Origin: Croceimicrobium hydrocarbonivorans
Lineage (GTDB): Bacteria > Bacteroidota > Bacteroidia > Flavobacteriales > Schleiferiaceae
Length of the DNA stretch: 64,000 bases
Direction: 5' to 3'
Assembly: GCF_014524565.1 (NCBI RefSeq)
Contig: NZ_CP060139.1
Coordinates: 1,681,501-1,745,500 of the forward strand
Positions 1 through 21,902 of the stretch are shown piece after piece. The number at the start of each line of letters is the position of its first letter. The stretch's first letter is position 1. Made by a program: the position numbers and the translations under genes. The notes below the pieces were generated by a model. That model made no database searches. It saw nothing but the letters and a program-made list of their open reading frames with translations, and had not been told where the DNA came from.

Positions 1-1533
1 AATATCGAAGGCATTACTGCGGTGAATTAAGGCCGACAAAGCGTCTACGGGCTCACCATTCAACATCACGTCCACCTTCACCATATCGCTTTCGCGGTAG
101 CCAGTGGGGTGATAATCGAAAGAAGCATAACCACGGGAAATAGACTTTAATCGATCGTAAAAGTCAAATACAATCTCCGCCAAGGGCATATCAAAACTCA
201 ACTCTACCCGCTCGGAAGTAAGGTAAACCTGATTGGTAAGGATACCGCGCTTCTCAATAGCCAAATTCATTACTGCACCAACATAGTCGGCCTTGGTAAT
301 TATCTGAGCTTTGATATAGGGCTCCTCGATATGATCCATTTTAGTTGGATCTGGAAATTCGGTAGGGTTATTTACAATCACGCAGCGCTCCGGATCCTTC
401 TTCATAAAGGAATGGTAGCTTACGTTGGGCACAGTTGTGATAACCGTCATATTAAACTCGCGCTCCAAACGCTCCTGGATAATCTCCATGTGGAGCATAC
501 CCAAGAATCCGCAGCGAAAACCAAAACCTAGAGCTGCCGAAGATTCAGGCTCGAAGGTTAAACTGGCATCATTCAGCTGAAGTTTCTCTAAGGAGGCGCG
601 TAACTCTTCGAACTCATCTGTATCTACCGGATAAATTCCGGCGAATACCATGGGCTTTACGTTTTCAAAACCGGCAATAGGCTTATCTGCTGGGCGCTCT
701 ACGGTGGTGATGGTATCTCCCACCTTCACCTCTTTAGCTTCTTTAATCCCGGAAATAATATAACCTACATTACCGGTGCCAATTTCTTTTTGGGGCTCTT
801 GCCGAAGACGTAAAACTCCAATTTCATCGGCATCATACTTACTTCCGGTATTCATGAACTTTACCGCAGAACCCGATTTCATAGAACCGTTTACCACCTT
901 AAAGAAGGCCTCAATACCACGATAAGGGTTAAAAACGGAATCAAAAATTAGGGCCTGTAAAGGTGCATCGGGATCTCCTTCCGGAGCGGGAATCCGTTTC
1001 ACTACCGCTTCTAAAATATCGGAAATACCAATTCCGGTTTTAGCGGAAGCCATGATAATATCTTCATCTTCACAGCCAATCAAATCAATAATTTGATCCT
1101 TTACCTCCTCGGGGTTGGCACTGGGAAGATCTACCTTATTGAGCACGGGAATAATTTCCAAATCATGCTCTAAGGCTAAATACAAGTTTGAAATGGTTTG
1201 CGCTTGAATACCCTGCGCGGCATCCACCACCAAAAGAGCCCCTTCACAAGCGGCAATAGCCCGAGAAACTTCGTAGGAGAAATCTACGTGTCCGGGGGTA
1301 TCAATCAGGTTGATGGTATAAGTGCTGCCCTCATGGATATAATTCATCTGGATCGCGTGGCTCTTAATGGTAATACCACGTTCGCGCTCCAGGTCCATAT
1401 CATCGAGCAGCTGGTTTTTCGCCTCACGCTCCGTAACCGTCTGCGTATGCTCTAATAAACGATCTGCCAGGGTACTTTTACCATGGTCGATATGAGCAAT
1501 GATGCAGAAATTTCGGATGTTATTCATCTTCAT
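1..1533 (-). CDS. lepA: Elongation factor 4 (LepA), C-terminus cut by window edge
   Basis: Ribosome-associated translational GTPase that acts on stalled or wrongly translocated ribosomes. The frame is open from the ATG at 1533 to the left edge, giving 511 codons of a protein usually near 600, so roughly the last 90 residues lie outside the window. Visible motifs are the P-loop HIDHGKST at residues 14-21, DTPGH at 78-82 and the guanine-specificity motif NKVD at 132-135. Long EF-G-like domains follow. The ATG at 1527 (MNNIRN) is an equally plausible start, and a further in-frame ATG lies at 1548. A variant Bacteroidota -7 box, TACTTTCG, sits at 1564-1557 on the minus strand. The identification is secure; the exact start is not. 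Confidence 0.96.
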
Positions 1534-1655
1534 AGGGCGCAATTTCATTTAAACTGCGAAAGTACGTAAAAGGACGACCTAAAAATCGATTCACATACTA
1601 AGCCCCCTTATCTGTCCCATTTCTTATGGTTTAGTACTGAGAATCAAGTGTATTC

Positions 1656-1707: not shown

Positions 1708-4083
1708 ATGAAATTATTCAAACAACTAATCGCTTTGGCCTTTGTATTTCTCCTGCTGGGAAATCAAAAAGCCGAAGCTTCTCACTTTTCCAGTGGGGAA
1801 ATCTATTACCGCTGGGCACCAACCGCTAACGACTCTAGCCGATACGAAGTTTTTGTAAACTGGTATCGTAATAATGGGGGGATTGCCATTACCCAAACCA
1901 CTCAGGTAGTGTGTATTACCAGCAGTTGTTTCCCCAATGTAAATGTTACTCTCAACCGTCTTATGCCGCCTCCCGGCCAAGCTTCTCCCAATGATAACAA
2001 TGGGGGTTGGATTGTACCTGGATTAGATGAGTGCGCCAATGCTACCGATCCTTCTTATAAAGATCTTTCCGTACATAAATTTTCAGGCTTTGTAAGCTTA
2101 CCCGGTACTTGTGGTGACTTTAAGTTTACGGCTAATGCGATTTGCTGTCGTGATGTTTCCACCAATTTGTCTACCTCACCCAACATGTATCTGGAGGCTA
2201 AATTGAACAATACTTTGGGAGAAAGTTCTTCTCCCGAGATTCAAGCTCCGGCGGGAAAAGCATTCTGCTTAACGCAGCCCGGTGCCAAGCCTTTCCAGTT
2301 TATTCAAGCGGCTATTGATGCAGACAATGACAGTATTTTATACCGTTTTGGACATCCACAATCCGGAGTAGTTTGTGGACCGGGAACCAATATTGCTTTC
2401 TCTGCCGGTTATACCGTAAACGCTCCTTTTCCAAGTTCTACCGGGATTGTGATTGATCAGAGTACGGGTATTTTCACCTTCAGTCCTAACCAACAAGGTT
2501 CCTATGTGGTAAAAATTGTGGTGGAAGACTGGCGTTTTGACCCCATCACTTTGCAGTGGTTAAATATTGGGGAATCAGTACGTGAAATTCAGATTCCGGT
2601 TACGGCTAACTGTAATCCTGCTTCTGCAGAAGGTCCACGATTATCTTTAACGGCCGCTTCTAATAATGCCGCCATTCAAAACTTCACCCAGGCAGAGGTA
2701 GATAGTTTAAAGAACCTCTACAACATGCGAGTTTTCCGTGGTGAAGACAGTATTAGCAATGGTACTGCCACAGTTCACCAGATTCCGATTTTCCAAGGCT
2801 ATCAGTGCTTCGATTCCATTGTATCGATTGAATTCAATAATAATGTTCGCTGTTCTTCGGTAGATCCAACTGACTTCCGTCTGATTGGTCCTGATGGAGT
2901 AGCACGTCCGGTAGTAGATGTAGAAACCAACTGTCAATTCCTGGTTTCACGTAACCTCGATCTCAAATTAAACCAACCTCTGGATGTAGATGGAACCTAT
3001 GTACTGCAGATCCGTCGTGGTAATGATGGTAACACCCTAACCAATGAGTGCGGTATTGAACTTTCAGAATTCTATACCTTCCTGATTCCGGTAAGTGGAT
3101 GTCCTGCTCCTACTTATGAATTGGATGGTCTTACCGTTGAAGGTGATGTGAACGTTCGTTTAGACTGGTCGGGTAATGCAGCCCTGCAAGATCCTTCCAT
3201 CATAGCCACCTTTAACTCTTGGAATATCTACCGTGCTGATGCCGGAAGACGTCCTTTCTCACTGCTCAAAGTGGTGGACGATGCCAATGCTCGTTTCTTC
3301 GTGGATAGCTTTGCGCCCAATGGATACTATGTAGATAACTTCATCTACGATTATCAAGTGCAATTGGTATACAATGGCAAAGGACGTATCCCTAGCCGTT
3401 TCTGCTCAAATATCAACCTGCGCATCGACAGTGCTCAGCGTTCCGATAACAACCTTCCATTGTACTGGAATCATTTCAAGTGTATTGACCCATCCGTAAG
3501 AAACTACGATGTGTTTAATGGTAAGCGCGATACTACCGTTCCTGCTCCTGGCATTAGCTGGACCTTGCAATCGCAAACTACCGATACCATTGCCAATATT
3601 GCGATCCCTGCCGGAGACAGTATCACCCAAGGTACTTATGCCGCTCGCGTAGTAGCACGAAACGTAAATGGTAGCAGTCGTACTGATTCTTCAGAATCCA
3701 ACTGGGTGTACTACTACGTGGTGTACTACCCACCGGTAATTCCAGATCCTCCCCCAACCGTTGGCGAAGTAATCATCCCGAATATTATTACCCCTAATGG
3801 TGATGGATTTAATGACCGCTTCTACATTAAAGCACCCCTTGATGGAGGAGCTCAATACGAAAATATCTCCGTTAGTATTTTCAACCGTCATGGTGAGCGC
3901 GTATACCAAAATGAAGATTTTGCCAGCATTAATGATGAAAATCAAGGTTGGAATGGTGTGAATAATTCAGGGCAAGAATTGGCCTCCGGAGTGTACTTCT
4001 ACATCATCCAAATGGAAAATCCGGCTTCTAACGAATCACAGACCCTACAAGGGAATATTACCATCAACACCGGTGGTCTATAA
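1708..4083 (+). CDS. Secreted CHU_C-domain protein, array copy 1
   Basis: Predicted cell-surface or secreted protein of 791 residues, function unknown. The start at 1708 (MKLFKQ) is preferred over upstream in-frame codons at 1648 and 1696 because it opens a normal signal peptide (hydrophobic core, then KAEAS) and matches copy 2. After the signal comes a beta-rich region starting SHFSSGEIYYRW, with paired cysteines (ITSSC, DECAN, GTCGD, CCRD). A cadherin/PKD-like stretch (DADNDS, FSPNQQGSY) and two Fn3-like segments follow. The last ~100 residues are a gliding-motility CHU_C domain beginning IPNIITPNGDGFNDRFYI. By family knowledge this is a type B sorting signal for the type IX secretion system. 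Much of the middle is nearly identical in DNA to copy 2. It has its own terminator at 4107-4138, so it is probably monocistronic. Confidence 0.88.
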   Translation: MKLFKQLIALAFVFLLLGNQKAEASHFSSGEIYYRWAPTANDSSRYEVFVNWYRNNGGIAITQTTQVVCITSSCFPNVNVTLNRLMPPPGQASPNDNNGGWIVPGLDECANATDPSYKDLSVHKFSGFVSLPGTCGDFKFTANAICCRDVSTNLSTSPNMYLEAKLNNTLGESSSPEIQAPAGKAFCLTQPGAKPFQFIQAAIDADNDSILYRFGHPQSGVVCGPGTNIAFSAGYTVNAPFPSSTGIVIDQSTGIFTFSPNQQGSYVVKIVVEDWRFDPITLQWLNIGESVREIQIPVTANCNPASAEGPRLSLTAASNNAAIQNFTQAEVDSLKNLYNMRVFRGEDSISNGTATVHQIPIFQGYQCFDSIVSIEFNNNVRCSSVDPTDFRLIGPDGVARPVVDVETNCQFLVSRNLDLKLNQPLDVDGTYVLQIRRGNDGNTLTNECGIELSEFYTFLIPVSGCPAPTYELDGLTVEGDVNVRLDWSGNAALQDPSIIATFNSWNIYRADAGRRPFSLLKVVDDANARFFVDSFAPNGYYVDNFIYDYQVQLVYNGKGRIPSRFCSNINLRIDSAQRSDNNLPLYWNHFKCIDPSVRNYDVFNGKRDTTVPAPGISWTLQSQTTDTIANIAIPAGDSITQGTYAARVVARNVNGSSRTDSSESNWVYYYVVYYPPVIPDPPPTVGEVIIPNIITPNGDGFNDRFYIKAPLDGGAQYENISVSIFNRHGERVYQNEDFASINDENQGWNGVNNSGQELASGVYFYIIQMENPASNESQTLQGNITINTGGL

Positions 4084-4106
4084 ACAAGCTTCGAAGACTC
4101 GATTAG

Positions 4107-4138
4107 AAAAGGCCGATTTCACTGAAATCGGCTTTTTT
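4107..4138 (+). terminator. Intrinsic terminator after CHU_C copy 1
   Basis: Nine-base-pair stem GCCGATTTC/GAAATCGGC with a 3-nt loop, preceded by A residues and followed by six T residues, 24 nt after the stop codon. Confidence 0.9.
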
Positions 4139-4242
4139 ACTAGTTGGAAACACCTTTTACTCATTTATATAAGTCAATAAGTATTTTGCTGTCTCAGTAC
4201 TAAGTACATTGTTATACATTAGCGTTCCAAAATTTTCGAGGT

Positions 4243-6612
4243 ATGAAATTTTTAAAATTACTAGGCTTAGTTCTATTATTCTCATTGAGCCTTAGCCCTT
4301 TAGAGGCGTCCCACTATTCCAGTGGTGATATTTATTATAAATGGTCTCCAATCGCCAGCGATTCTAGTCGTTACGAAGTTTTCGTAAACTTTTATCGGAA
4401 TAACGGTGGTGCGACAATTCCCGGTGGTACTTTCCAAATTTGTATTACCAGTAGTTGTTATCCAAACATCAACGTAACCCTTAACAAGCTTTTACCTCCT
4501 ACAGGTCAAGCTTCTCCTAACGATAACAATGGTGGATGGATTGTACCCGGATTGGATGAGTGTGCCAATGCTACGGATCCTTCTTATAAAGATCTTTCCG
4601 TACATAAATGGAGTGGCTTTGTGAGTTTACCCGGTACTTGTGGTGACTTTAAATTTACCGCTGCACCTCCTTGCTGTCGTGACGTATCAACCAATTTGGC
4701 AACTTCTCCGAACATGTACCTCGAAGCCAAATTGAATAATACTTTGGGAGAAAGTTCTTCTCCTGAGATTCAAGCTCCGGCGGGAAAAGCATTCTGCTTA
4801 ACGCAGCCCGGTGCCAAGCCTTTCCAGTTTATTCAAGCTGCTATTGATGCAGACAATGACAGTATTCGTTACCGCTTTGGTCATCCTCAGTCTGGTAACA
4901 ACTGTGGTCCTGGTACCAACATCGCTTTCTCTGCCGGTTATACCGTTAACGCTCCCTTCCCAAGTTCTACCGGGATTATTATTGATCAAAAGACAGGTAT
5001 CTTTACCTTCAGTCCTAATCAACAGGGTTCTTACGTAATTAAGATCATTGTTGAAGATTGGCGTTTTGACCCCATTACCTTACAATGGCTGAACATTGGT
5101 GAGACCGTGCGTGAAATTCAGGTTCCGGTTACGGCTAACTGTAACCCTGCTTCTGCAGAAGGTCCACGATTATCTTTAACGGCCGCTTCTAATAATGCCG
5201 CCATTCAAAACTTCACCCAAGCAGAGGTAGATAGTCTTAAAAACCTCTACAATATTCGTGAGTTTCGTGGTGAAGACAGTATCAGCAATGGTACTGCCAC
5301 AGTTCACCAAATTCCGATTTTCCAGGGTTACCAATGTTTTGACTCTATTGTTTCGATTGAGTTTAGCAACAATATTCGTTGTTCTTCAGTAGATCCAACA
5401 GACTTCCGTCTGACTGGTCCTGATGGAGTAGCACGTCCGGTAGTAGATGTAGAAACCAACTGTCAATTCCTGGTTTCACGTAACCTCGATCTCAAATTAA
5501 ACCAGCCTCTGGATGTAGATGGTACCTATGTACTACAGATCCGTCGTGGTAATGATGGTAACACCCTTACCAATGAGTGCGGTATTGAACTTTCAGAATT
5601 CTATACCTTCCTGATTCCGGTAAGTGGATGTCCGGCTCCTACTTATGAACTGGATGGTCTTACCGTTGAAGGTGATGTGAACGTTCGTTTAGACTGGTCG
5701 GGTAATGCAGCCCTGCAAGATCCTTCCATCGTAGCTACCTTTAACTCTTGGAATATCTACCGTGCTGATGCCGGAAGACGTCCTTTCTCACTGCTCAAAG
5801 TAGTAGACGATGCCAATGCTCGTTTCTTCGTAGATAGCTTTGCGCCCAATGGATACTATGTAGATAACTTCATCTACGATTATCAAGTGCAATTGGTATA
5901 CAATGGCAAAGGACGTATCCCTAGCCGTTTCTGCTCAAATATCAACCTGCGCATCGACAGTGCTCAGCGTTCCGATAACAACCTTCCATTGTACTGGAAT
6001 CATTTCAAGTGTATTGACCCATCCGTAAGAAACTACGATGTGTTTAATGGCAAACGCGATACTACGGTTCCTGCTCCTGGCATAACCTGGACTTTACAAT
6101 CCCAAACTACCGACACCATTGCCAATATTGCGATCCCTGCCGGAGATAGCACCACTCAAGGAACTTATGCCGCTCGCGTAGTAGCACGAAACGTAAATGG
6201 TAGCAGTCGTACTGATTCTTCAGAATCCAACTGGGTGTACTACTACGTTGTATATTACCCACCGGTAATTCCAGAACCACCTGCAACAGTAGGTGAGGTA
6301 ATTATCCCGAATATTATTACCCCTAATGGTGATGGATTTAATGACCGCTTCTACATTAAAGCACCTCTTGATGGAGGAGCTCAATACGAAAATATCTCCG
6401 TGAGTATTTTCAACCGCCACGGAGAGCGCGTGTACAAGAATGAAGATTTTGCCAGCATTAATGATGAAAATCAAGGCTGGAGTGGTGTGAATAATTCCGG
6501 TCAGCAATTAGCCTCTGGAGTGTACTTCTACATCATCCAAATGGAAAACCCCGCCTCTAATGAATCACAAACCCTGCAAGGGAATATTACTATCAACACG
6601 GTTGGTATGTAG
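4243..6612 (+). CDS. Secreted CHU_C-domain protein, array copy 2
   Basis: Paralogue of the preceding gene, 789 residues. It has a signal peptide (MKFLKLLGLVLLF, cleavage expected near LEAS), the same cysteine-containing N-terminal region, two Fn3-like segments and a C-terminal CHU_C domain (IPNIITPNGDGFNDRFYI, then SGVYFYII). The start ATG at 4243 is unambiguous. Protein identity to copy 1 is very high from about residue 100 onward. The regions around residues 60-75 differ (IPGGTFQI here, ITQTTQVV in copy 1). DNA identity is patchy, with near-identical blocks alternating with blocks rich in silent differences. It is closed by its own terminator. No promoter as good as that of copy 1 or 4 was found; TACATTAG at 4215-4222 lacks a correctly spaced TTG. 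Function unknown; probably a type IX secretion substrate. Confidence 0.88.
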   Translation: MKFLKLLGLVLLFSLSLSPLEASHYSSGDIYYKWSPIASDSSRYEVFVNFYRNNGGATIPGGTFQICITSSCYPNINVTLNKLLPPTGQASPNDNNGGWIVPGLDECANATDPSYKDLSVHKWSGFVSLPGTCGDFKFTAAPPCCRDVSTNLATSPNMYLEAKLNNTLGESSSPEIQAPAGKAFCLTQPGAKPFQFIQAAIDADNDSIRYRFGHPQSGNNCGPGTNIAFSAGYTVNAPFPSSTGIIIDQKTGIFTFSPNQQGSYVIKIIVEDWRFDPITLQWLNIGETVREIQVPVTANCNPASAEGPRLSLTAASNNAAIQNFTQAEVDSLKNLYNIREFRGEDSISNGTATVHQIPIFQGYQCFDSIVSIEFSNNIRCSSVDPTDFRLTGPDGVARPVVDVETNCQFLVSRNLDLKLNQPLDVDGTYVLQIRRGNDGNTLTNECGIELSEFYTFLIPVSGCPAPTYELDGLTVEGDVNVRLDWSGNAALQDPSIVATFNSWNIYRADAGRRPFSLLKVVDDANARFFVDSFAPNGYYVDNFIYDYQVQLVYNGKGRIPSRFCSNINLRIDSAQRSDNNLPLYWNHFKCIDPSVRNYDVFNGKRDTTVPAPGITWTLQSQTTDTIANIAIPAGDSTTQGTYAARVVARNVNGSSRTDSSESNWVYYYVVYYPPVIPEPPATVGEVIIPNIITPNGDGFNDRFYIKAPLDGGAQYENISVSIFNRHGERVYKNEDFASINDENQGWSGVNNSGQQLASGVYFYIIQMENPASNESQTLQGNITINTVGM

Positions 6613-6640
6613 TAAATCATAAAACTGAGCGATAACTCAA

Positions 6641-6669
6641 GGCCGTCCAATTTAGGACGGCCTTTTTTT
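6641..6669 (+). terminator. Intrinsic terminator after CHU_C copy 2
   Basis: Stem GGCCGTCC/GGACGGCC with a 6-nt loop followed by seven T residues, 28 nt after the stop codon. Confidence 0.9.
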
Positions 6670-6766
6670 ATGCGAAAAGTGCTAATCCTCAGTCATAAAT
6701 CCCCACAAATTAGTCTGTCTTTACATGGTTGCCTTAGGCTGCTAGCTTGCTTAAAAATTAGCAACC

Positions 6767-9172
6767 ATGAAAATATCAACTTCGGTCTTCCTTCGGTTTC
6801 TTTCCGTTCTATTGCTTCTCACCATAAGCTTTAGCCTAAAGGCCTCGCATTACTCCAGTGGTGAAATATTTTATCGCTGGTCCCCAACTCCCACCGATTC
6901 TTTGCGCTATGAAATCTGTGTCTATTTCTATCGCTATACAGGTTCCCCTGCCACCATTCCCAATCAACCCATCAACATCTGTATCTCCAGCAGTTGCTAT
7001 CCAGATGTTAGCGTAGCTCTAAATAAAAACCTGCCGCCTCCCGGTCAAGCCTCGCCGAATGATAATAATGGCGGTTGGATTGTTAATGGTTTGGACGAAT
7101 GTGCCGATGTAAATGATCCAGATTATAAGGACCTTGCTGCCCATATCTGGTGTGGCTATGCCACTCTTCCCGGTATCTGTGGTGATTTTGAGTTTACCGC
7201 CGGACCACCATGTTGCCGTGATGAAGCCGATAATCTGGTAAACTCCAATGTTCGCAGCATGGTAATTACAGCTAAATTAAACAATACTCTAGGGCATAAT
7301 TCATCCGCCGAAATTCAGGCCCCAGCTGGAAAGGCCTTTTGTTTATCACAACCTGGATCTAAACCTTTTGAATTTTTACAGGCTGCCTTTGATGCAGACG
7401 GCGATAGTTTGGTTTATCGCCTAGGTCATCCAGAAGAGGCCACCGGTTTTCCTGATGCCTTTAACAATGCCTATTGCGGCGGCAAAGCGAACATCCCTTT
7501 TGCTACTGGTTACACGGTAAACAATCCCTTTCCTAGCTCCACTGGTTTTGTGATTGACCAAAAAACCGGAATCTTCCGATTTAGCCCTAGCCAACAAGGT
7601 TCTTATGTAATTAAAATCGTGGTAGAGGATTGGCGATTCGACCCCATTCATTTGCTATGGGTAAAAATCGGTGAGATGGTCCGTGAAATTCAAATCCCGG
7701 TTACCGCGAATTGTAATCCCACCTCGCAGGCCGGCCCACGCTTATCCCTGACCTCTTCTAGCAATAATGCTATTATCCAAAACTTCAGTCAAGCCCAAAT
7801 AGACAGTATGAAGCAGGCATATGACATGCAAGTCTTCTTTGGTGATGACAGTATAAGCAATGGTACCGCTACTATTCATCATATTCCAATCTTCCAGGGC
7901 TATCAGTGCTTCGACTCTATTGTATCGATTGAATTCAATAATAATGTGCGTTGTTCATCTGTAGATCCTACCGACTTCCGTTTAATTGGTCCGGATGGTG
8001 TCGCTCGTCCGGTGGTTGAAGTGGAAACTAATTGCCAATTCCTGGTTACTCGTAACCTTGATTTGAAGTTAAATCAACCCTTAGATGTAGACGGTATGTA
8101 TGTATTGCAGATCCGTCGTGGTAATGATGGAAACACCCTTACTAATGAATGTGGTATTGAGCTCTCAGAATTCTATACCTTCCTAATTCCGGTAAGCGGA
8201 TGCCCTGCTCCTACTTACGAACTGGATGGTCTAACCGTGGAAGGCGATGTAAATGTTCGTCTGGATTGGTCTGGTAATGCCGACCTCACAGATCCTGCGG
8301 TACAAGCTTCTTTCGATGCCTGGAATATCTATCGCGCGGATGCAGGCGTAAGACCCTTCTCTCTCCTTAAGGTTATCAAGGACCCCAGTGCCCGCTTTAT
8401 GGTAGATAGCTTTGCGCCCAATGGATATTATGTAGACAATTTCATTTACGACTATCAGGTGCAATTAGTGTACAACGGTAAAGGACGAATCCCCAGTCGT
8501 TTCTGCTCCAATATCAATTTGCGTATCGACAGTGCTCAGCGATCTGACAACAACCTTCCATTGTACTGGAATCACTTTAAGTGCATTGATCCTTCGGTAA
8601 GAAACTACGATGTGTTTAACGGAAAACGCGATACCTCTGTACCTGCCCCGGGAATTGTTTGGGAGCTGCATTCTCAAACCACCGATACCATTGCCAATAT
8701 AGCTATCCCTGCTGCCGACAGCAATAGCCAGGGAACCTATGCCGCAAGAGTGGTAGCCCGCAATGTAAATGGTGGTAGCCGAACAGATTCATCTGAATCT
8801 AACTGGGTGTATTACTATATCGTGCATTATCCCAAAGATCCAGAACCCAGGGTTGGTGAAGTTCTAATTCCCAATATTATCACACCAAATGGCGATGGCC
8901 TTAATGATCGATTCTACATACAAAGTCCCGCAAATGGGGTACAGTACGAGCATATCTCCTTACGTATATTCAATCGCCATGGTGAGCGAGTTTATCAAAA
9001 CCCCAATTTCGATGCGGTAAATGATGCGGCTCAAGGTTGGGATGGAGTAAACCAATCCGGACAAAGACTGAGCTCTGGGGTGTACTTCTACATCATTGAG
9101 ATGAGCAATCCTTCCAGTGGTGAAGCTCAAAGTTTGGAGGGTACTCTAACTATAAACGCCTACGGATTCTAA
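6767..9172 (+). CDS. Secreted CHU_C-domain protein, array copy 3
   Basis: Third member of the array, 801 residues. The signal peptide (hydrophobic stretch FLSVLLLLTISF, then LKASHYSSG) is followed by the family N-terminal region. It carries a short insertion relative to copies 1 and 2 around residues 220-235 (EATGFPDAF). The central part, about residues 370-700, is nearly identical to copies 1 and 2 at protein level. The DNA there carries many silent differences, so the protein sequence is conserved by selection. The CHU_C domain starts IPNIITPNGDGLNDRFYI. Own terminator at 9192-9224. Function unknown; probably exported by the type IX system. Confidence 0.88.
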   Translation: MKISTSVFLRFLSVLLLLTISFSLKASHYSSGEIFYRWSPTPTDSLRYEICVYFYRYTGSPATIPNQPINICISSSCYPDVSVALNKNLPPPGQASPNDNNGGWIVNGLDECADVNDPDYKDLAAHIWCGYATLPGICGDFEFTAGPPCCRDEADNLVNSNVRSMVITAKLNNTLGHNSSAEIQAPAGKAFCLSQPGSKPFEFLQAAFDADGDSLVYRLGHPEEATGFPDAFNNAYCGGKANIPFATGYTVNNPFPSSTGFVIDQKTGIFRFSPSQQGSYVIKIVVEDWRFDPIHLLWVKIGEMVREIQIPVTANCNPTSQAGPRLSLTSSSNNAIIQNFSQAQIDSMKQAYDMQVFFGDDSISNGTATIHHIPIFQGYQCFDSIVSIEFNNNVRCSSVDPTDFRLIGPDGVARPVVEVETNCQFLVTRNLDLKLNQPLDVDGMYVLQIRRGNDGNTLTNECGIELSEFYTFLIPVSGCPAPTYELDGLTVEGDVNVRLDWSGNADLTDPAVQASFDAWNIYRADAGVRPFSLLKVIKDPSARFMVDSFAPNGYYVDNFIYDYQVQLVYNGKGRIPSRFCSNINLRIDSAQRSDNNLPLYWNHFKCIDPSVRNYDVFNGKRDTSVPAPGIVWELHSQTTDTIANIAIPAADSNSQGTYAARVVARNVNGGSRTDSSESNWVYYYIVHYPKDPEPRVGEVLIPNIITPNGDGLNDRFYIQSPANGVQYEHISLRIFNRHGERVYQNPNFDAVNDAAQGWDGVNQSGQRLSSGVYFYIIEMSNPSSGEAQSLEGTLTINAYGF

Positions 9173-9191
9173 TCTAAATTCGCTTTAACTC

Positions 9192-9224
9192 AATGCCGCC
9201 CCCTAATCGGGCGGCATTTTTTTT
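9192..9224 (+). terminator. Intrinsic terminator after CHU_C copy 3
   Basis: Ten-base-pair stem AATGCCGCCC/GGGCGGCATT with a 7-nt loop, followed by a T run, 19 nt after the stop codon. Confidence 0.92.
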
Positions 9225-9272
9225 AGTCTATCCTCCAAAGCTCAATCGAAAAGCTGCTACACAAAGTGAGGA

Positions 9273-9303
9273 TTGCCCGACCTTAAGCAGCTTTCTACTT
9301 TTA
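9273..9303 (+). promoter_or_regulatory. Promoter in the gap between CHU_C copies 3 and 4
   Basis: TTG at 9273-9275, exactly 20 nt, then TACTTTTA at 9296-9303. The spacing and near-consensus -7 box equal those of copy 1. It points at the small ORF starting at 9318. Confidence 0.5.
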
Positions 9304-9317
9304 AGCAAAATCCAACC

Positions 9318-9449
9318 ATGAAATGTCTTTATTCGCAAAAAGGCCTCGCGACAGTTCTGCTTCTAAATCATTCTGCTCGCCGGGCCTTCTTTTGGATTAA
9401 GAAGTCCCAAGACTCTAAAGTAAGCCTCTTTCAAAATCCTAAAATCTAG
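9318..9449 (+). CDS. Small ORF, 43 residues, unknown
   Basis: ATG at 9318 opens 43 codons beginning MKCLYSQKGLATVLLL and ending at TAG 9447-9449. It lies in the otherwise gene-free 445-nt gap between CHU_C copies 3 and 4. The support is contextual: a promoter 15 nt upstream and a terminator at 9552-9587 bracket it as a separate transcription unit of about 280 nt. The N-terminal third is mildly hydrophobic and the remainder is basic. No family was recognised. The rest of the gap (9450-9551) holds only short repeats (TATCCGG twice) and a weak hairpin at 9520-9537. The transcript could equally be a non-coding RNA. Confidence 0.35.
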   Translation: MKCLYSQKGLATVLLLNHSARRAFFWIKKSQDSKVSLFQNPKI

Positions 9450-9551
9450 CTAATCCAATATCCGGATTTCTAAAGTGTATATCCGGTTCAAATACAGGGC
9501 TGTTTAACTAATCATCCCTAAGGAACTATTATTCCTTTTTCTGTTTCGATC

Positions 9552-9587
9552 AAAAAAGGTGAGCCTTTACTAAGTCTCGCCTTTTTT
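9552..9587 (+). terminator. Intrinsic terminator upstream of CHU_C copy 4
   Basis: Stem AAAAAAGGTGAG/CTCGCCTTTTTT with one G-T wobble and a 12-nt loop. It ends just before the promoter of copy 4, so it must belong to a transcript from the gap and not to copy 3, which already has its own terminator. Confidence 0.75.
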
Positions 9588-9588
9588 A

Positions 9589-9620
9589 TTTGCCCTCAGC
9601 TTCAAGGAGTTCTATTTTTG
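9589..9620 (+). promoter_or_regulatory. Consensus Bacteroidota promoter of CHU_C copy 4
   Basis: TTTG at 9589-9592, a 20-nt spacer, TATTTTTG at 9613-9620. This is a perfect match to the phylum consensus. It places the TTG at 9618 inside the -7 box and makes the ATG at 9636 the real start. Confidence 0.75.
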
Positions 9621-9635
9621 TTGAAATTGATTACT

Positions 9636-11939
9636 ATGCCTACTTCTTCGCGCTTCTGGCTTTCTTTGTGTACTGGCCTTCTATTTTTAAGTACAAGCTG
9701 GAATTTAAATGCCTCCCATTTTTCTAGTGGTGAAATTACCTATCGTTGGGCTCCGACTGCCAACGACTCAAGCAGATATAGAGTTCAGGTTACATATTTT
9801 AGGAATACTGCCGGAGCCACTATTGTTAACACCAGCATTCCAATATGCATAAGTAGCAGCTGCTACGCTAATATCAATGCTACTTTAAACAAGCTTATGC
9901 CACCATCAGGCCTGGCTTCCCCAAATGATAATAATGGTGGTTGGATTGTAGCTGGTTTAGATGATTGTGCTAATACCCAAGACTCATCTTATCGAGATCT
10001 GGCTGCTCATAAATTTGCCGGATATGTATCTCTTCCCGGAGTTTGTTCAGACTTTAAATTTTCGGCCAGTGCTGCTTGTTGCAGAGATATTTCAAGTAAT
10101 CTGAATAGCTCGCCAAACCTCTTTATCTCCGCTCATCTAAATAATACTTTGGGAGAATCCTCATCCCCTCAATTTCTGGATTCAGCAGCGATTGCACTTT
10201 GCGTACAGATGCCAGGCGCTCAACCTATACATTTCTCACAAGCAGCCTATGATCCGGACGGAGATACTATAACCTATTCATTGGGTCAACCTGAGTCAGG
10301 CCTTAATTGCGGGCCAGGCATCCCAATAGCTTATTCCCCTGGATTTACCGCTGCCAATCCAATTCCGAGCAATACAGGATTTGTGCTTAATCCGTTTTCA
10401 GGTGAATTTACATTAAGCCCCTCCCAACAAGGAGTTTATGTCTTAAAACTTGAAGTTCACAATTATCGCTGGGATACGGTTACCTATACTTGGATCTCCA
10501 TTGGAAATGCTGTGCGGGAGTTGATGGTTCCGGTCACTGCTAATTGCAGCAATAATGCGCAGTTTAATAATGGTCTCTTAATTCAAAATGGTACTTATAC
10601 AGAAAGAAACATTAGTTCCAGCCAAAAAGACAGCATACGCAATGCCTATCAGGTTCAAAATGTATATATAGATACTGGTTCTACAACGCATGCTTTAAAA
10701 CTTTTATCAGGCTACCATTGCTTTGATACAGTTATAAGACTTGAATTCAAGAGCCCTATCATCAAATCGTCAGTAACCGCAACTGATTTTCGCATTTTCG
10801 CACCTGGCGCTGTTTCTGTTCCAATTACCTCCGTTTCGGACACAGGAAATTCTCTTTTCACCAATTACTTAGATCTCCATCTTTATAAACCTCTAGTTTA
10901 TAATGGCAATTACCTTTTACAAATAAGACTAGGTAATGATGGAAACACTATTATCGGCAAATGTGGAGTTTCCATACCCCAGTTCAGCAGCTTGATTATA
11001 CCTATTAATGGTTGTCCGGTTCCAGATTTTGAGCTTGATCAAATAAGCGTTCTAGAAGACGAAAAAATCACCCTCCAATGGTCGGCAAACTCCGCTTTAC
11101 AAGACAGTAATGTTCAGAAGTTCTTTGGAAGCTGGAATGTTTTTGCCAGTGAAAACCAAGGTCCCTGGAACCTGATCCATAGTTTACAAAGTCCAGCGGC
11201 CAGAAACCATACCATCGACTTTGGTGGAAGCAACTATCCTGTGGATCACAATAATTACGAGTTCTTTCTTGATTTGCGCTATGCTGGCGAAAACTGGGGC
11301 TCAAGCCGCAGCTGCGAGACCATTCTTTTGGAAGCCAACTCTAGTAAAGACACTGGAAGCAATTATGAAATTGATTTGACTTGGAACGACTATGATTGTC
11401 TGGACCCGAATCAAAGAGGCTATCTAATAGAATATGGGCATTTCTTTAGAGTGGATTCTGTAGTATGGTTAAACAGTATCAGCACGAACCTAAATCAGCA
11501 TTTGCTTAGCATTCCCAAATCTCATGGAACAGGTCTATATGCGATTCGAGTTATAGCAAAGGATCCCCAAAATCAAGCACTACCCTCACAATCAAACTGG
11601 ATTATTTTTGATTCCCAAACTCCTATTGGTTTGTCCGAAAATGCCCTTAATTGGCAGATCCCGAACATCCTTAACCCAAATGGGAATGGTCAAAACGAAA
11701 GCTTTTACATCCAAAACCAAAGTTCCACTGCGCAAGATGTTCACATCAGCTTGAAAGTTTTTAATCAAACTGGTCAGCTAGTTTTTAGTGATGCCCAATA
11801 TCACCACCGAAATACGCCCGCTAATGCATGGAATGGCGGCAGCTTAAGCACAGGGGTCTATTTCTACGAAATTGAGTTTACAGGGCCCGCTAAAGGATCT
11901 CAAGCTCCTTTGCAAGGAAAACTCTTACTGGTTAAATAA
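9636..11939 (+). CDS. Secreted CHU_C-domain protein, array copy 4 (divergent)
   Basis: The most divergent member of the array, 767 residues. The start at ATG 9636 is chosen because the in-frame TTG at 9618 lies inside a consensus promoter. A signal peptide (LCTGLLFLSTSW, then LNASHFSSG) precedes the family N-terminal region, which keeps the PNDNNGGWIV motif and the cysteine pairs. The middle and Fn3-like parts are clearly diverged from copies 1-3 and lack the near-identical block. The C-terminal domain (IPNILNPNGNGQNESFYI, then STGVYFYEIEF) is a recognisable but degenerate CHU_C: the usual NGDG is NGNG. Its promoter and terminator are private. Function unknown; whether the altered C-terminus still works as a sorting signal cannot be told from sequence. 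Confidence 0.85.
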   Translation: MPTSSRFWLSLCTGLLFLSTSWNLNASHFSSGEITYRWAPTANDSSRYRVQVTYFRNTAGATIVNTSIPICISSSCYANINATLNKLMPPSGLASPNDNNGGWIVAGLDDCANTQDSSYRDLAAHKFAGYVSLPGVCSDFKFSASAACCRDISSNLNSSPNLFISAHLNNTLGESSSPQFLDSAAIALCVQMPGAQPIHFSQAAYDPDGDTITYSLGQPESGLNCGPGIPIAYSPGFTAANPIPSNTGFVLNPFSGEFTLSPSQQGVYVLKLEVHNYRWDTVTYTWISIGNAVRELMVPVTANCSNNAQFNNGLLIQNGTYTERNISSSQKDSIRNAYQVQNVYIDTGSTTHALKLLSGYHCFDTVIRLEFKSPIIKSSVTATDFRIFAPGAVSVPITSVSDTGNSLFTNYLDLHLYKPLVYNGNYLLQIRLGNDGNTIIGKCGVSIPQFSSLIIPINGCPVPDFELDQISVLEDEKITLQWSANSALQDSNVQKFFGSWNVFASENQGPWNLIHSLQSPAARNHTIDFGGSNYPVDHNNYEFFLDLRYAGENWGSSRSCETILLEANSSKDTGSNYEIDLTWNDYDCLDPNQRGYLIEYGHFFRVDSVVWLNSISTNLNQHLLSIPKSHGTGLYAIRVIAKDPQNQALPSQSNWIIFDSQTPIGLSENALNWQIPNILNPNGNGQNESFYIQNQSSTAQDVHISLKVFNQTGQLVFSDAQYHHRNTPANAWNGGSLSTGVYFYEIEFTGPAKGSQAPLQGKLLLVK

Positions 11940-12004: not shown

Positions 12005-13348
12005 CTAAGCATCTTTATACTTAAAGGTCTCCATAAATTTAGTGGTATAGTTCCCTGCGATATAATCAGGGTCATCCATTAAAGCACGGTGGAAAGGAAT
12101 GGTGGTTTTAATACCCTCAATCACAAATTCATCCAATGCTCTACGCATCTTATCAATGGCCTCTTCACGGGTTTGAGCCGTAGTAATCAATTTGGCAATC
12201 ATTGAATCGTAATATGGAGGAATGCTATAACCCGCGTATACGTGCGTATCCAAACGCACACCATGGCCACCAGGGGCATGGAATGTAGTAATAGTTCCTG
12301 GCGAAGGACGGAAATCATTCGCGGGATCCTCGGCATTAATACGACATTCGATAGAGTGCAATTTAGGCTCATAGTTCTTACCTGAAATGGTAATTCCTGC
12401 GGCTACTTTAATTTGCTCACGGATCAGATCATAATCAATTACCTGCTCAGTAATCGGATGCTCTACTTGAATACGAGTATTCATCTCCATGAAGTAGAAG
12501 TTGCGATGCTTATCCACCAAAAACTCGATGGTTCCCGCGCCTTCATACTTAATATACTCACAAGCTTTTACTGCGGCCTCACCCATTGACTTACGCAACT
12601 TGGCGGTCATAAATGGTGAAGGAGTTTCTTCGGTAAGCTTTTGGTGACGACGTTGAATGGAACAGTCGCGCTCAGAAAGGTGACAGGCTTTACCCGTTTG
12701 ATCTCCTACCACCTGAATTTCAATGTGGCGAGGTTCTTCAATCAGTTTTTCCATGTACATACCATCGTTTCCGAAGGCAGCACCTGCTTCTTGACGAGCA
12801 GACTCCCATGCTTTCAGCAGGTCTTCTGCCTTCCAAACGGCACGCATTCCTTTACCACCACCACCGGCGGTAGCTTTCAACATTACCGGAAAACCGATTT
12901 CCTTAGCAATCTTCAAGGCTTCCTCATAAGAATCGAGTAAGCCCTCTGAACCAGGAATGGTAGGTACACCGGCGGCTTTCATGGTTTCTTTGGCCGTAGC
13001 CTTATCTCCCATGCGCTCGATCATCTCAGGGCTGGGGCCGATGAATTTGATCCCGTTCTCCGAACAAATACGAGAGAAACGAGCATTTTCAGATAAGAAA
13101 CCGTATCCCGGGTGAATCGCATCCGCATTGGTAATCTCTGCGGCAGCAATAATATTGGGAATATTCAAATAAGATTCGCTACTGGCGGCTGGGCCAATAC
13201 ATACAGCTTCATCGGCAAAACGCACGTGTAAGCTGTCCTTATCGGCTTTAGAGTAAACCGCAACGGTAGAAATGCCCATTTCCCTACAAGTACGTAGGAC
13301 ACGCAAGGCAATCTCTCCGCGATTCGCGATGAGTACTTTTTTAAACAT
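12005..13348 (-). CDS. accC: Acetyl-CoA carboxylase, biotin carboxylase subunit
   Basis: Carboxylates the biotin of BCCP using ATP and bicarbonate, the first half-reaction of acetyl-CoA carboxylase, the committed step of fatty-acid synthesis. The 447 residues match the family length. Visible parts are the N-terminal [19 protein letters not shown], the ATP-grasp glycine loop GGGGKGMR, and the carboxylate/metal region [11 protein letters not shown]. It lies 10 nt after accB, in the usual accB-accC pair. The carboxyltransferase genes accA and accD are not in this window. Confidence 0.97.
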
Positions 13349-19151: not shown

Positions 19152-19241
19152 CCAATTCAAAAGCCTCGAAGATAAGAGCTATTGCCCAACACAAAACCTG
19201 CTTTTGAACGTTTAGGTATAGATCGCGGATTTTCCCCAATT

Positions 19242-21902
19242 ATGAGAAAAAGCCTACTGCTTATTTTCCTTTTCGCCGGAATGGCCTTGCATGCCACCCA
19301 TAACCGGGCCGGTGAAATCACCTATCGCTGGATAACTGGCCTTACTTACGAGGTTACGATTACGACTTATACCCGGGCTTGTCAGCTCTGTGCCGATCGC
19401 TGTGAACTGTCTATCGACTGGGGTGATAATTCGGGTGATACTCTCGCTCGATCCAATGGCCCCCGCATTGTTTGCTTGCAAGCCAGGGATGGAGAAATCA
19501 TTGACCCCATCAATCAAATTCGAAAAAATATATACATAGGCACCCATACCTATGATGCCCCAGGGATCTACACCATTAAAATGGAAGATCGGAACCGAAA
19601 TGCTGGGATTAGCAATATTCTCAATTCGGATCAGGTACCCTTTTATATTGAAACTGAATTATACATCAGCCCCAGCTTAGGTGCCAATAGCTCTCCCATT
19701 TTAACCAACCCTCCGGTAGAACGAGGTTGTGTGGGTAAGCGATTTGAACATAATCCCGGCGCCTATGACCCGGATGGGGATAGCTTAGCTTATCGATTGG
19801 TGTATTCCAAAGCTCAAAATGGCGATCCTATTCAAACTATTTACGATCCTCAATATGTGCAGGATTCGATTGAAATTGATCCCAATACCGGATTACTATT
19901 TTGGGACTTACCTCGAAATGTGGGTCAGTTTAACTTCGCCTTCGAAATTGTAGAATTCCGTAAAAATGCCCAGGGTCGCTATGTGCGGATAGGCTACGTT
20001 ACCCGCGATTTACAGGTGGATATCGAAGATTGTGGGAATAATCCTCCGGAAGTTATACCGGTGGGGCCTTTCTGTGTAGAGGCGGGCACCAGCTTAAACT
20101 TTAGTGTCACGGCCACCGATCCGGATACAGATGATTTGATCCTCACCGCTTTTGGTGGCCCCTTCGAAGTACCTACTCCTCCGGCTACTTTTCCTGAAGT
20201 AAATGGCCCCAGCCCATTGAGTGGTTTCTTCAACTGGAATACCCGCTGCCATCATGTGCGCAAACAGCCCTATCAGGTAAGCTTTAAGGCCACCGATATT
20301 CCCCAAGACCCCAATGACATTGCCCTGTCGGACATCTATACCACCGAAATTACGGTTATCGCGCCGGCCCCCAAAAATCCGGATGCCCAAGCAGAAGGTC
20401 TGGCCCTAAGGCTTAATTGGGATGTTTCTTTCTGCACCGAGGCGGATGGTTATTTACTCTACCGCCGCGAATCGCCCTATGGCTTTGTGCCGGGAGTTTG
20501 TGAAACCGGAGTCCCGGCTTATACCGGCTATGAATTTCATGATAGCTTGTTGAATGTAAACAATACTACTTATCTCGATAGCTTCGATGTGGAGCTTGGT
20601 AAGGAATATTGCTATATGGTAGTAGCCTATTTTGAGGATGAGGCTCAAAGCTATGCCAGCGAAGAGTTCTGTGCGGCTCTGCCCTTAACCTTGCCGATGT
20701 TTACCAAGGTGGACGTAGAAAGTACCGACCCTGCCAGCGGAACTATTGGCATTGAATGGATTGAAGCCCCCGAATTCGATAGTACTATTTACCTGCCTCC
20801 TTATCGTTTGGAATTATGGGGACGAGAAAAAGACAATGGCGCCTTTAACCTCTTGAACACCGCCAACAATATTGACGCGGGCAATTTCACCCATAACAAT
20901 CTAAATACTCAGGACCTTTCCTACGAATACCATTTGGATGTGTATGCCGGTCCTAATCAGGATTTTGTAGGCTCCAGCCCCTTGGCTTCTTCGGTGTATG
21001 CAGAGCCTACCGGATCGGATCAAAGTGTAATGCTCGACTTCAATTTTGATACCCCCTGGCAGAACGAACGTTTTGTAATCTATCGGGAAAACCCCACTGG
21101 ATCAGGACAATTTGATAGCATCGGCGAAAGCTTTGTACCCGAATATACCGACACCGGCTTGGTGAACGGCGAAAACTACTGTTACTATGCCGAGAGCTAT
21201 GGCCGCTATACCGCCAGCGACTCCTTGCCCCGGCCTTTGGTTAATCGTAGTCAGATTACTTGCGCTACCGCCAGAGACACCACCGCTCCTTGCCCACCGC
21301 AATTTGCCTTGTACAATGCCTGCCCCGATACTATTTATTTCTCTTGGAAATTAGCGCAGGGCAATGGCTGTAAAAACGATGTTAGTAAAATCAACATCTA
21401 CTTCCGCACCGGTGAAAATGAATTTGGTGATCAACCCTTCTTATCCATTCCGGTAAATGGCGACTCTACCATCCGCTTTGTAAGTGACCAAGCCATATTT
21501 GGCTGCTATGCCATTACCGCGGTAGATGATGCGGATCAAGATCCGGGTGGACAAGCGAATGAAAGTGCCTTTAGCGAAGAGCTCTGCATTGAAAGCTGCT
21601 TTACGATTAAATTCCCGAATATCTTCAGCCCTAATGGCGATGGCTATAATGAGCGATTCCTACCTGTAGAAATTGAGCAGGTGGCCAATCTGGAAATTGA
21701 AATCTACAGTCGTTGGGGTAATTTAATATACCGCACTACCGACTTAGAGGATTTCCTTAGCAATGGCTGGGATGGTAATGTGCAAGATAATGGCAGTCCG
21801 GCGCCCGATGGTGTTTATTATTATGTTTGCCGCTACACCGCCGAAAGTATTGGACCTACCATGGAACAAACCGCTTCGGGATTTGTACATCTTGTGAGAT
21901 AA
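19242..21902 (+). CDS. Secreted multidomain CHU_C protein
   Basis: Predicted secreted or surface protein of 886 residues, function unknown. The start at 19242 (MRKSLLLIFLFAGMALHA) gives a clean signal peptide; the upstream TTG at 19182 does not. The mature N-terminus ATHNRAGEITYRW is the same type as in the four array proteins, but the rest is only distantly related. It then has PKD/cadherin-like stretches (DWGDNSGD, GAYDPDGDSLAYRL, TATDPDTDDL) and several Fn3-like modules. The CHU_C domain starts FPNIFSPNGDGYNERF and ends in a VHLVR tail. It is probably a type IX secretion substrate. It is unlinked in function to the ribE gene that starts 8 nt later, though they are likely co-transcribed. 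Confidence 0.88.
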   Translation: MRKSLLLIFLFAGMALHATHNRAGEITYRWITGLTYEVTITTYTRACQLCADRCELSIDWGDNSGDTLARSNGPRIVCLQARDGEIIDPINQIRKNIYIGTHTYDAPGIYTIKMEDRNRNAGISNILNSDQVPFYIETELYISPSLGANSSPILTNPPVERGCVGKRFEHNPGAYDPDGDSLAYRLVYSKAQNGDPIQTIYDPQYVQDSIEIDPNTGLLFWDLPRNVGQFNFAFEIVEFRKNAQGRYVRIGYVTRDLQVDIEDCGNNPPEVIPVGPFCVEAGTSLNFSVTATDPDTDDLILTAFGGPFEVPTPPATFPEVNGPSPLSGFFNWNTRCHHVRKQPYQVSFKATDIPQDPNDIALSDIYTTEITVIAPAPKNPDAQAEGLALRLNWDVSFCTEADGYLLYRRESPYGFVPGVCETGVPAYTGYEFHDSLLNVNNTTYLDSFDVELGKEYCYMVVAYFEDEAQSYASEEFCAALPLTLPMFTKVDVESTDPASGTIGIEWIEAPEFDSTIYLPPYRLELWGREKDNGAFNLLNTANNIDAGNFTHNNLNTQDLSYEYHLDVYAGPNQDFVGSSPLASSVYAEPTGSDQSVMLDFNFDTPWQNERFVIYRENPTGSGQFDSIGESFVPEYTDTGLVNGENYCYYAESYGRYTASDSLPRPLVNRSQITCATARDTTAPCPPQFALYNACPDTIYFSWKLAQGNGCKNDVSKINIYFRTGENEFGDQPFLSIPVNGDSTIRFVSDQAIFGCYAITAVDDADQDPGGQANESAFSEELCIESCFTIKFPNIFSPNGDGYNERFLPVEIEQVANLEIEIYSRWGNLIYRTTDLEDFLSNGWDGNVQDNGSPAPDGVYYYVCRYTAESIGPTMEQTASGFVHLVR

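Follow-up and report, generated by a model that had tools for sequence, protein, structure and literature searches.

A tandem array of CHU_C surface-protein genes with probable segment-restricted concerted evolution in Croceimicrobium hydrocarbonivorans

Background

The HMW adhesins of Haemophilus use two-partner secretion. HMW1 and HMW2 are paralogous surface adhesins that differ most in the binding domain (36% identity), and gene conversion between their loci has been suggested (PMC8262952). The two loci occupy separate chromosomal positions, are subject to repeat-driven phase variation, and are suggested to swap binding domains with one another (PMC8262952). Kgp and other surface proteins of Porphyromonas gingivalis are reported to owe their diversity to rearranged domains and to alleles exchanged between strains of that species (PMC5266723). 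In Flavobacterium johnsoniae, substrates with type B sorting domains are linked with SprF/PorP-like shuttles (PMC12618676, PMC9143113), and one shuttle serves three orphan type B substrates (PMC12618676).

The locus described here shares with HMW1/HMW2 its paralogous surface proteins with divergent presumed binding domains, and with the gingipains a type IX secreted (T9SS) surface protein, predicted as such in the present case, diversified by exchange. Unlike the HMW loci, the present genes form a tandem array in which the N-terminal region (head) of the first copy stays in place while the remainder (rear) is homogenised; unlike the P. gingivalis case, exchange takes place within a tandem array whose copies have a common rear and whose first head keeps its position. 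The F. johnsoniae comparison is confined to type B sorting and the shuttle, whereas our subject is conversion within an array. P. gingivalis aside, none of the open-licence papers listed was, by title or abstract start, about gene conversion in tandem T9SS paralogues. The kind is a known one, paralogous adhesins that combine divergent binding domains with gene conversion, and this array adds a case to it; it is unusual in being replicated, in two arrays and several species, and in having copy-1 heads fixed in position. It represents a known evolutionary process and is not evidence of a switching system.

The array and its products

The window, a stretch of 64,000 nucleotides from Croceimicrobium hydrocarbonivorans, comes from a genome (G000) assembled as a single 4.04 Mb contig. 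Four tandem CHU_C paralogues, c1 to c4, lie there on the plus strand between minus-strand genes that we take to be lepA (EF-4) on the left and accC, with accB, on the right (Table 1). As a preliminary description of this DNA had proposed, all four belong to the CHU_C family, at 76.5, 76.4, 78.8 and 53.1 bits for c1 to c4 against a cut-off of 27 (Pfam PF13585). c1 to c3 also pass the type B sorting model (NCBIfam TIGR04131, 40-47 bits, cut-off 35); c4 is not classed as type B because it misses that model (20.8) and passes the type A model TIGR04183 (28.3, cut-off 23). All four proteins have a hydrophobic N-terminal start, judged by eye. At the DNA level c1 and c2 are 87.7% identical.

Table 1. 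Positions of array features within the window
Feature	Position	Strand	Remark
lepA (EF-4) gene, cut by window start	1..1548	-	left array flank, kept in relatives
c1, copy 1, 791 aa	1708..4083	+	head, beta-domain stalk and type B (CHU_C) sorting domain
Head region of c1, residues 25-240	1780..2427	+	measured on 26-240
c1 part of near-invariant middle region, residues 361-500	2788..3207	+	silent identity to c3 raised
c1 side of 71-codon difference-free run	3304..3519	+	partner 5833-6048 in c2
c2, copy 2, 789 aa	4243..6612	+	92% aa identity to c1
c2 side of 71-codon difference-free run	5833..6048	+	partner 3304-3519 in c1
Terminator-like hairpin after c2	6639..6664	+	hairpin scan
c3, copy 3, 801 aa	6767..9172	+	76% aa identity to c1
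c3 counterpart of middle region	7889..8308	+	silent likeness to sister-species orthologue lower than elsewhere
Terminator-like hairpin after c3	9192..9218	+	hairpin scan
c4, copy 4, 767 aa	9636..11939	+	43% aa identity to c1; sorting domain over type A model only
c4 segment, residues 10-468, diverged/non-orthologous relative to G001 within orthologous flanks	9663..11039	+	two-break scan
accC-like biotin carboxylase gene	12005..13348	-	right array flank

The genome encodes the SprA translocon (SprA_N match, 542 bits). It holds 21 CHU_C matches against 3 PorP/SprF-family matches over cut-off, a rough ratio in that the CHU_C model is not equal to type B, and none of the three adjoins the array; many CHU_C substrates may share shuttles or use shuttles missed by the PorP/SprF model. 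Promoter-like signals in the array region were in no excess over shuffled sequence, nor were terminators in that region as a whole (7 found, shuffle mean 9.3).

A structural model of c1 is a chain of beta domains (pLDDT 80, pTM 0.44). Its residues 467-568 form a predicted fibronectin-III domain, which superposes on Robo3 FN2-3 with Z 12.3 and an rmsd of 2.0 across 89 residues. The head modelled alone reached a moderate pLDDT of 70.6 and had no clear fold match: the lowest Foldseek E value was 7e-4 (TM 0.26) and the highest Z 6.2. Residues about 170-302 have a weak cadherin-like or beta-sandwich match, with Z about 6, in the range of common arrangements. Matching solved structures by sequence gave weak hits only (best E 0.01).

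Relatives were sought in 59 genomes, the window genome included, at a threshold of 1e-20; 38 hold a match. Array copies are present in all seven genomes of the genus, again counting the window genome; the other six, found by name, are metagenome assemblies (Flavobacteriales or Bacteroidetes), G001 being the sister species, and one genome per species was compared. Array structure differs among relatives: the order lepA, copies, accC with both flanks is found in 7 of the 15 extracted regions, with 1 to 4 copies, and a further locus (L008) has it too, while the remaining regions stop short, are without one of the flanks or have another arrangement.

Mosaic divergence between copies in the window genome

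c1 and c2 differ at 167 of 714 comparable silent codons. Clustering of these differences is strong, with a block variance of 17.31 compared with 3.5 when shuffled (0 of 2000 shuffles as high). The longest run free of silent differences covers 71 codons, a length reached in 0 of 5000 shuffles, and a second covers 33 codons (2872-2973, p 0.023), so synonymous divergence between the two is not uniform. The near-identical block first described in c1 at 2881-3520 is real, its partner in c2 lying at about 5410-6049 rather than 5421-6060, which is about 11 bases out of register; the neighbouring stretch 2701-2880 is, as had been stated, dense in silent differences (22-54% in 30-codon windows). The further suggestion that c1 is nearer to c3 than to c2 around 2800-2850 is visible to the eye, without reaching significance. 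Between 2788 and 2907, c1 agrees with c3 alone at 13 sites, with c2 at 10, and c2 with c3 at 4, all three differing at 2 (9, 9, 4 and 2 at silent sites only); the longest c1-c3 run (9 codons, 2818-2844) has p 0.33 and the c1-c3 block variance p 0.35, that of c2-c3 being mildly raised (p 0.015).

The middle third of the protein is nearly invariant in c1 to c3, as had also been noted: over residues 361-500 and 551-610, c3 is identical to c1 at 191 of 200 positions and to c2 at 188 of 200. Silent identity between c1 and c3 is 59% in these residues against 43% elsewhere (p 2.6e-4); for c3 and its G001 orthologue it is 57% here and 73% outside them (p 5.6e-5). These p values are indicative, the region having been picked after viewing the protein alignment. 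When eight further pairs of species were put to the same test, odds ratios ranged from 0.67 to 1.32, and two of these ran the other way with p 0.03-0.05. The values for c3 suggest an older conversion, which may have been into c3 or into its G001 counterpart.

Opposite behaviour of head and rear across species

Across the genus, head was taken as residues 26-240 and rear as residues 361-791; copy 1 of G001 ends at residue 410 and was excluded from the pair counts. Among copy-1 orthologues (10 pairs from 5 species) the head is 84-93% identical in amino acids and the rear 68-84%, the head being higher in 10 of 10. Within genomes the relation between copies 1 and 2 is reversed in G000, G003 and G005, with heads at 83-94% and rears at 97-100%. 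Silent identity of the rear in these pairs is 84% (G000), 98% (G003) and 100% (G005), against 50% for the head in G003 and 76% in G005. Change points between copies 1 and 2 fall at residue 236 in G003, 250 in G005 and 388 in G000, and 0 of 1000 shuffles equalled any of them; among five species pairs, three have no change point, and the remaining two correspond to c3 (p 0.007) and to the c4 exchange described below. In G003 and G005 the identical tract crosses the stop codon and the terminator, and then stops.

The rear is not homogenised between copies 1 and 2 of G004 (67% head, 69% rear) or of G002 (61-71% head, 74% rear; its copy 2 lies on two contigs, 2n and 2c), the second copy in both genomes bearing a c3-like head, nor between copies 2 and 3 of G006 (84% head, 83% rear). 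The reversal thus holds in 3 of 3 genomes if those bearing a c3-like head on copy 2 are left aside, and in 3 of 5 when copies are paired by position. Copy 2 compared between G000 and G003 has a head no better conserved than its rear (85% and 84%), and c3 against the second copy of G004 gives 73% and 68%; because copy-2 heads are about as conserved as rears, the claim of conserved heads is carried by copy 1, and less by copy 3.

Outside the genus, the rear is more alike than the head in 4 of 5 within-genome pairs (G024, G035, G019 and G008; head/rear identities 43/70, 42/61, 78/86 and 86/91%), the fifth, in G009, being about equal (42/45). Because silent sites are mostly saturated in these pairs, signs of recent conversion outside the genus are limited to the parts of G019 and G008 where silent identity is high. 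In yet another genome, two c1 relatives (G027:C38 and G027:C18) both end at residue 563 beside contig ends. This would fit a collapsed identical 3' repeat and may be a sign that the process also acts in another genus.

The pattern recurs in a second array of the window genome. At G000:C1:3741039-3751586 (L052:2040-12587) lie three CHU_C genes of about 1135 aa each, unlike the first array in length, copy number and locus, and only distantly related to it (25% aa identity over 569 columns, E 4e-16). The first 100-180 residues of its copies 1 and 2 are divergent and the rest is near-identical. In G000, G003, G004 and G005, identity of copies 1 and 2 is 68-93% over residues 23-180 and rises to 96-100% over 481-1080 (4 of 4 genomes), whereas between species residues 23-180 of copy 1 are the more conserved in 15 of 15 pairs. 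Within-genome change points, at residues 428-609, were unmatched in 1000 shuffles in 4 of 4 pairs, with likelihood gains of 20.8-131.8; change points in species pairs reached p about 0.01 in 2 of 10, with gains of 6.8 and 7.9. These counts exclude copy 2 of G006, with its end out of frame, G001, with one full copy, and the split second copy of G002.

Trees of the two segments disagree as well. In the head tree, copy-1 sequences cluster across species, though weakly supported (82/75); a second group (93/88) takes in copy-2 and c3-type heads, so that the copy-2 heads of G000 and G003 fall outside the copy-1 group, and copy-4 types form a third (99/98). In the rear tree, which bears a long-branch warning from the program, c1, c2, c3 and the G001 copy 3 cluster together (99/98), the G003 pair and the G005 pair are each identical, and many other forks are unresolved. 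AU tests bear the conflict out, four of five having p < 0.05. For the head, the clades {c1, c2} (p 0.023) and {G003_1, G003_2} (p 0.031) are rejected, both moderately, as is a clade uniting the five copy 1-3 rows from G000 and G001 (p 7e-7); for the rear, the clade {c3, G001_3, G004_2} is rejected (p 1.2e-7), and p weakens to 0.06 when G002_2c is added.

Segment-restricted concerted evolution

Our preferred and probable reading is of a family of predicted type IX secreted surface proteins whose concerted evolution is restricted to one segment. The comparisons show that recombination between copies, by gene conversion or equivalent crossing-over, recurs and homogenises the 3' half to two thirds of the genes, comprising the stalk domains and the sorting domain and, in G003 and G005, the terminator, and that the heads escape it, that of copy 1 keeping its place and staying well conserved across species. 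Silent-site tracts in which paralogues are more alike than orthologues occur in the first array of G000, G003 and G005 and in the second array of G000, G003, G004 and G005, and are absent from the first array of G004, G002 and G006. The repeated gene conversion proposed in the preliminary description is thereby supported, and is replicated in other species and in the second array. The heads may be copy-specific binding modules, and the rears may be kept alike by shared stalk contacts and a single SprF/PorP-like shuttle; diverged heads could resist conversion either through homology that is too low or through selection removing converts.

A neutral version of the same process, in which conversion occurs wherever homology suffices, without functional meaning, and heads escape through earlier divergence, is a possibility to be taken seriously, if short of probable. 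Such a process would be self-reinforcing through homology, and it agrees with copy-2 heads that are no better conserved than rears and with change points in G003 and G005 (236-250) that appear to fall inside the second predicted head domain rather than at its edge, domain boundaries having been drawn by eye. The greater conservation of copy-1 heads over rears between species speaks against it, suggesting copy-specific purifying selection, as does the recurrence of the same head/rear split in the second array.

It is tempting to go further and picture a display system in which position-fixed heads are carried on an interchangeable, continually re-synchronised stalk and sorting signal, whose uniformity would let several orphan substrates use one shuttle, the last copy being a free slot whose head can be replaced from outside; we regard this extension as rather unlikely as a whole. 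More generally, the arrays amount to a replicated natural experiment that separates the specific part of a type IX protein, the head, from the generic stalk and sorting signal, and the split predicts which parts bind ligands and which match a shared shuttle.

Exchange of the copy 4 head and the question of variation

Copy 4 represents the opposite unit of change, its head and middle domain having diverged from the sister species. Proteins of the locus are otherwise close between G000 and G001 (lepA 99.6%, accC 98.7%, c3 95.6%), yet c4 and its G001 counterpart agree at 226 of 444 positions in residues 21-465 against 258 of 301 in residues 466-767. A two-break scan places the diverged DNA at 9663-11039, where 598 of 1374 positions differ, against 112 of 470 and 167 of 965 (279 of 1435) in the flanks, a contrast that 0 of 100 shuffles equalled. 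In c1 numbering the right break is at residue 473, or at 484 from silent sites alone, and so lies 6-17 residues into the predicted fibronectin-III domain. We read the segment as a head-module exchange, whichever of the sister species changed. A search for the donor in 88 family genomes gave a nearest match of 53% (G003), and the source is therefore not among the sampled genomes. DNA just upstream of the c4 start codon is orthologous (54/59 and 48/60), and 9399-9517, farther upstream, aligns poorly (21/47 and 29/53). Gene loss with fusion was considered as an origin of c4 and is less likely, the DNA directly upstream of the start being orthologous. Copy 4 of G001 (L042:3091-5391) has an in-frame stop at codon 556, either real or a draft-assembly error.

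That the array generates variants of a surface protein, with recombination among copies reshuffling surface epitopes within a population by antigenic or phase variation, appears improbable. Tandem copies with converted tracts and the diverged c4 head are what such a system could leave, and residues 60-75, a patch reported to differ among all four copies, do so (6-12 of 16 identical); in copy 2 the patch is just 9/16 identical between G000 and G003. Against this, all 10 pairs of copy-1 orthologues agree at 13-15 of the 16 patch residues, and between G000 and G001 the patch is 16/16 identical in copy 1 and 15/16 in copy 3, with 5/16 in copy 4. As far as these alignments go, the patch is, in copies 1 and 3, a marker of the copy and not of the strain, and in copy 1 it is not hypervariable. 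Antigenic variation of copies 1 and 3 is accordingly unsupported, the patch being conserved between species, with copy 2 giving a less clear-cut signal. In 6 of the 7 genus genomes, moreover, the copy next to lepA bears a class-1 head, from which we conclude that heads are not freely shuffled within the array. The originally proposed arrangement of a conserved scaffold with variable patches is largely reversed, the scaffold being what recombines and the copy-1 rear changing the faster; what stands of it concerns c4 only, on an evolutionary time scale. Mosaic paralogues viewed without their relatives thus call for caution before antigenic variation is read into them.

An origin in assembly, through repeats collapsed or joined into chimeras in draft metagenomes, is very improbable. 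Some local features do have that look: the G001 copy-1 contig ends just within the block that is near-identical between c1 and c2, the two G027 copies end at the same residue, and copy 4 of G001 carries its stop. The window genome is one contig, however, and its c1/c2 mosaic contains the 167 silent differences, while the tract in G003, likewise on one contig, has 26 silent differences over its 540 codons. The c4 break at 11039 precedes the G001 stop by about 260 bases, with high identity between the two.

Least probable of all is a history in which the whole gene was recently duplicated in tandem and heads alone then diversified fast under selection, without gene conversion. It would account for copy 1/2 heads that differ over near-identical rears in G003 and G005, yet needs silent divergence to be uniform along copy pairs, which it is not, cannot by selection on amino acids yield the head/rear difference in silent identity in G003, and is at odds with the copy-2 heads of G000 and G003 falling outside the copy-1 group and with the alternating c1/c2 blocks.

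Two further genes may be recorded. Copy 2 of the second array in G006 (L056, reverse-strand 4968-8534) is 1188 aa long and ends out of frame, the usual sorting end being absent. On the plus strand of the window, 19182-21902 encodes a lone type B (CHU_C) protein; its start is similar, and in the second head domain it bears a weak likeness to c1.
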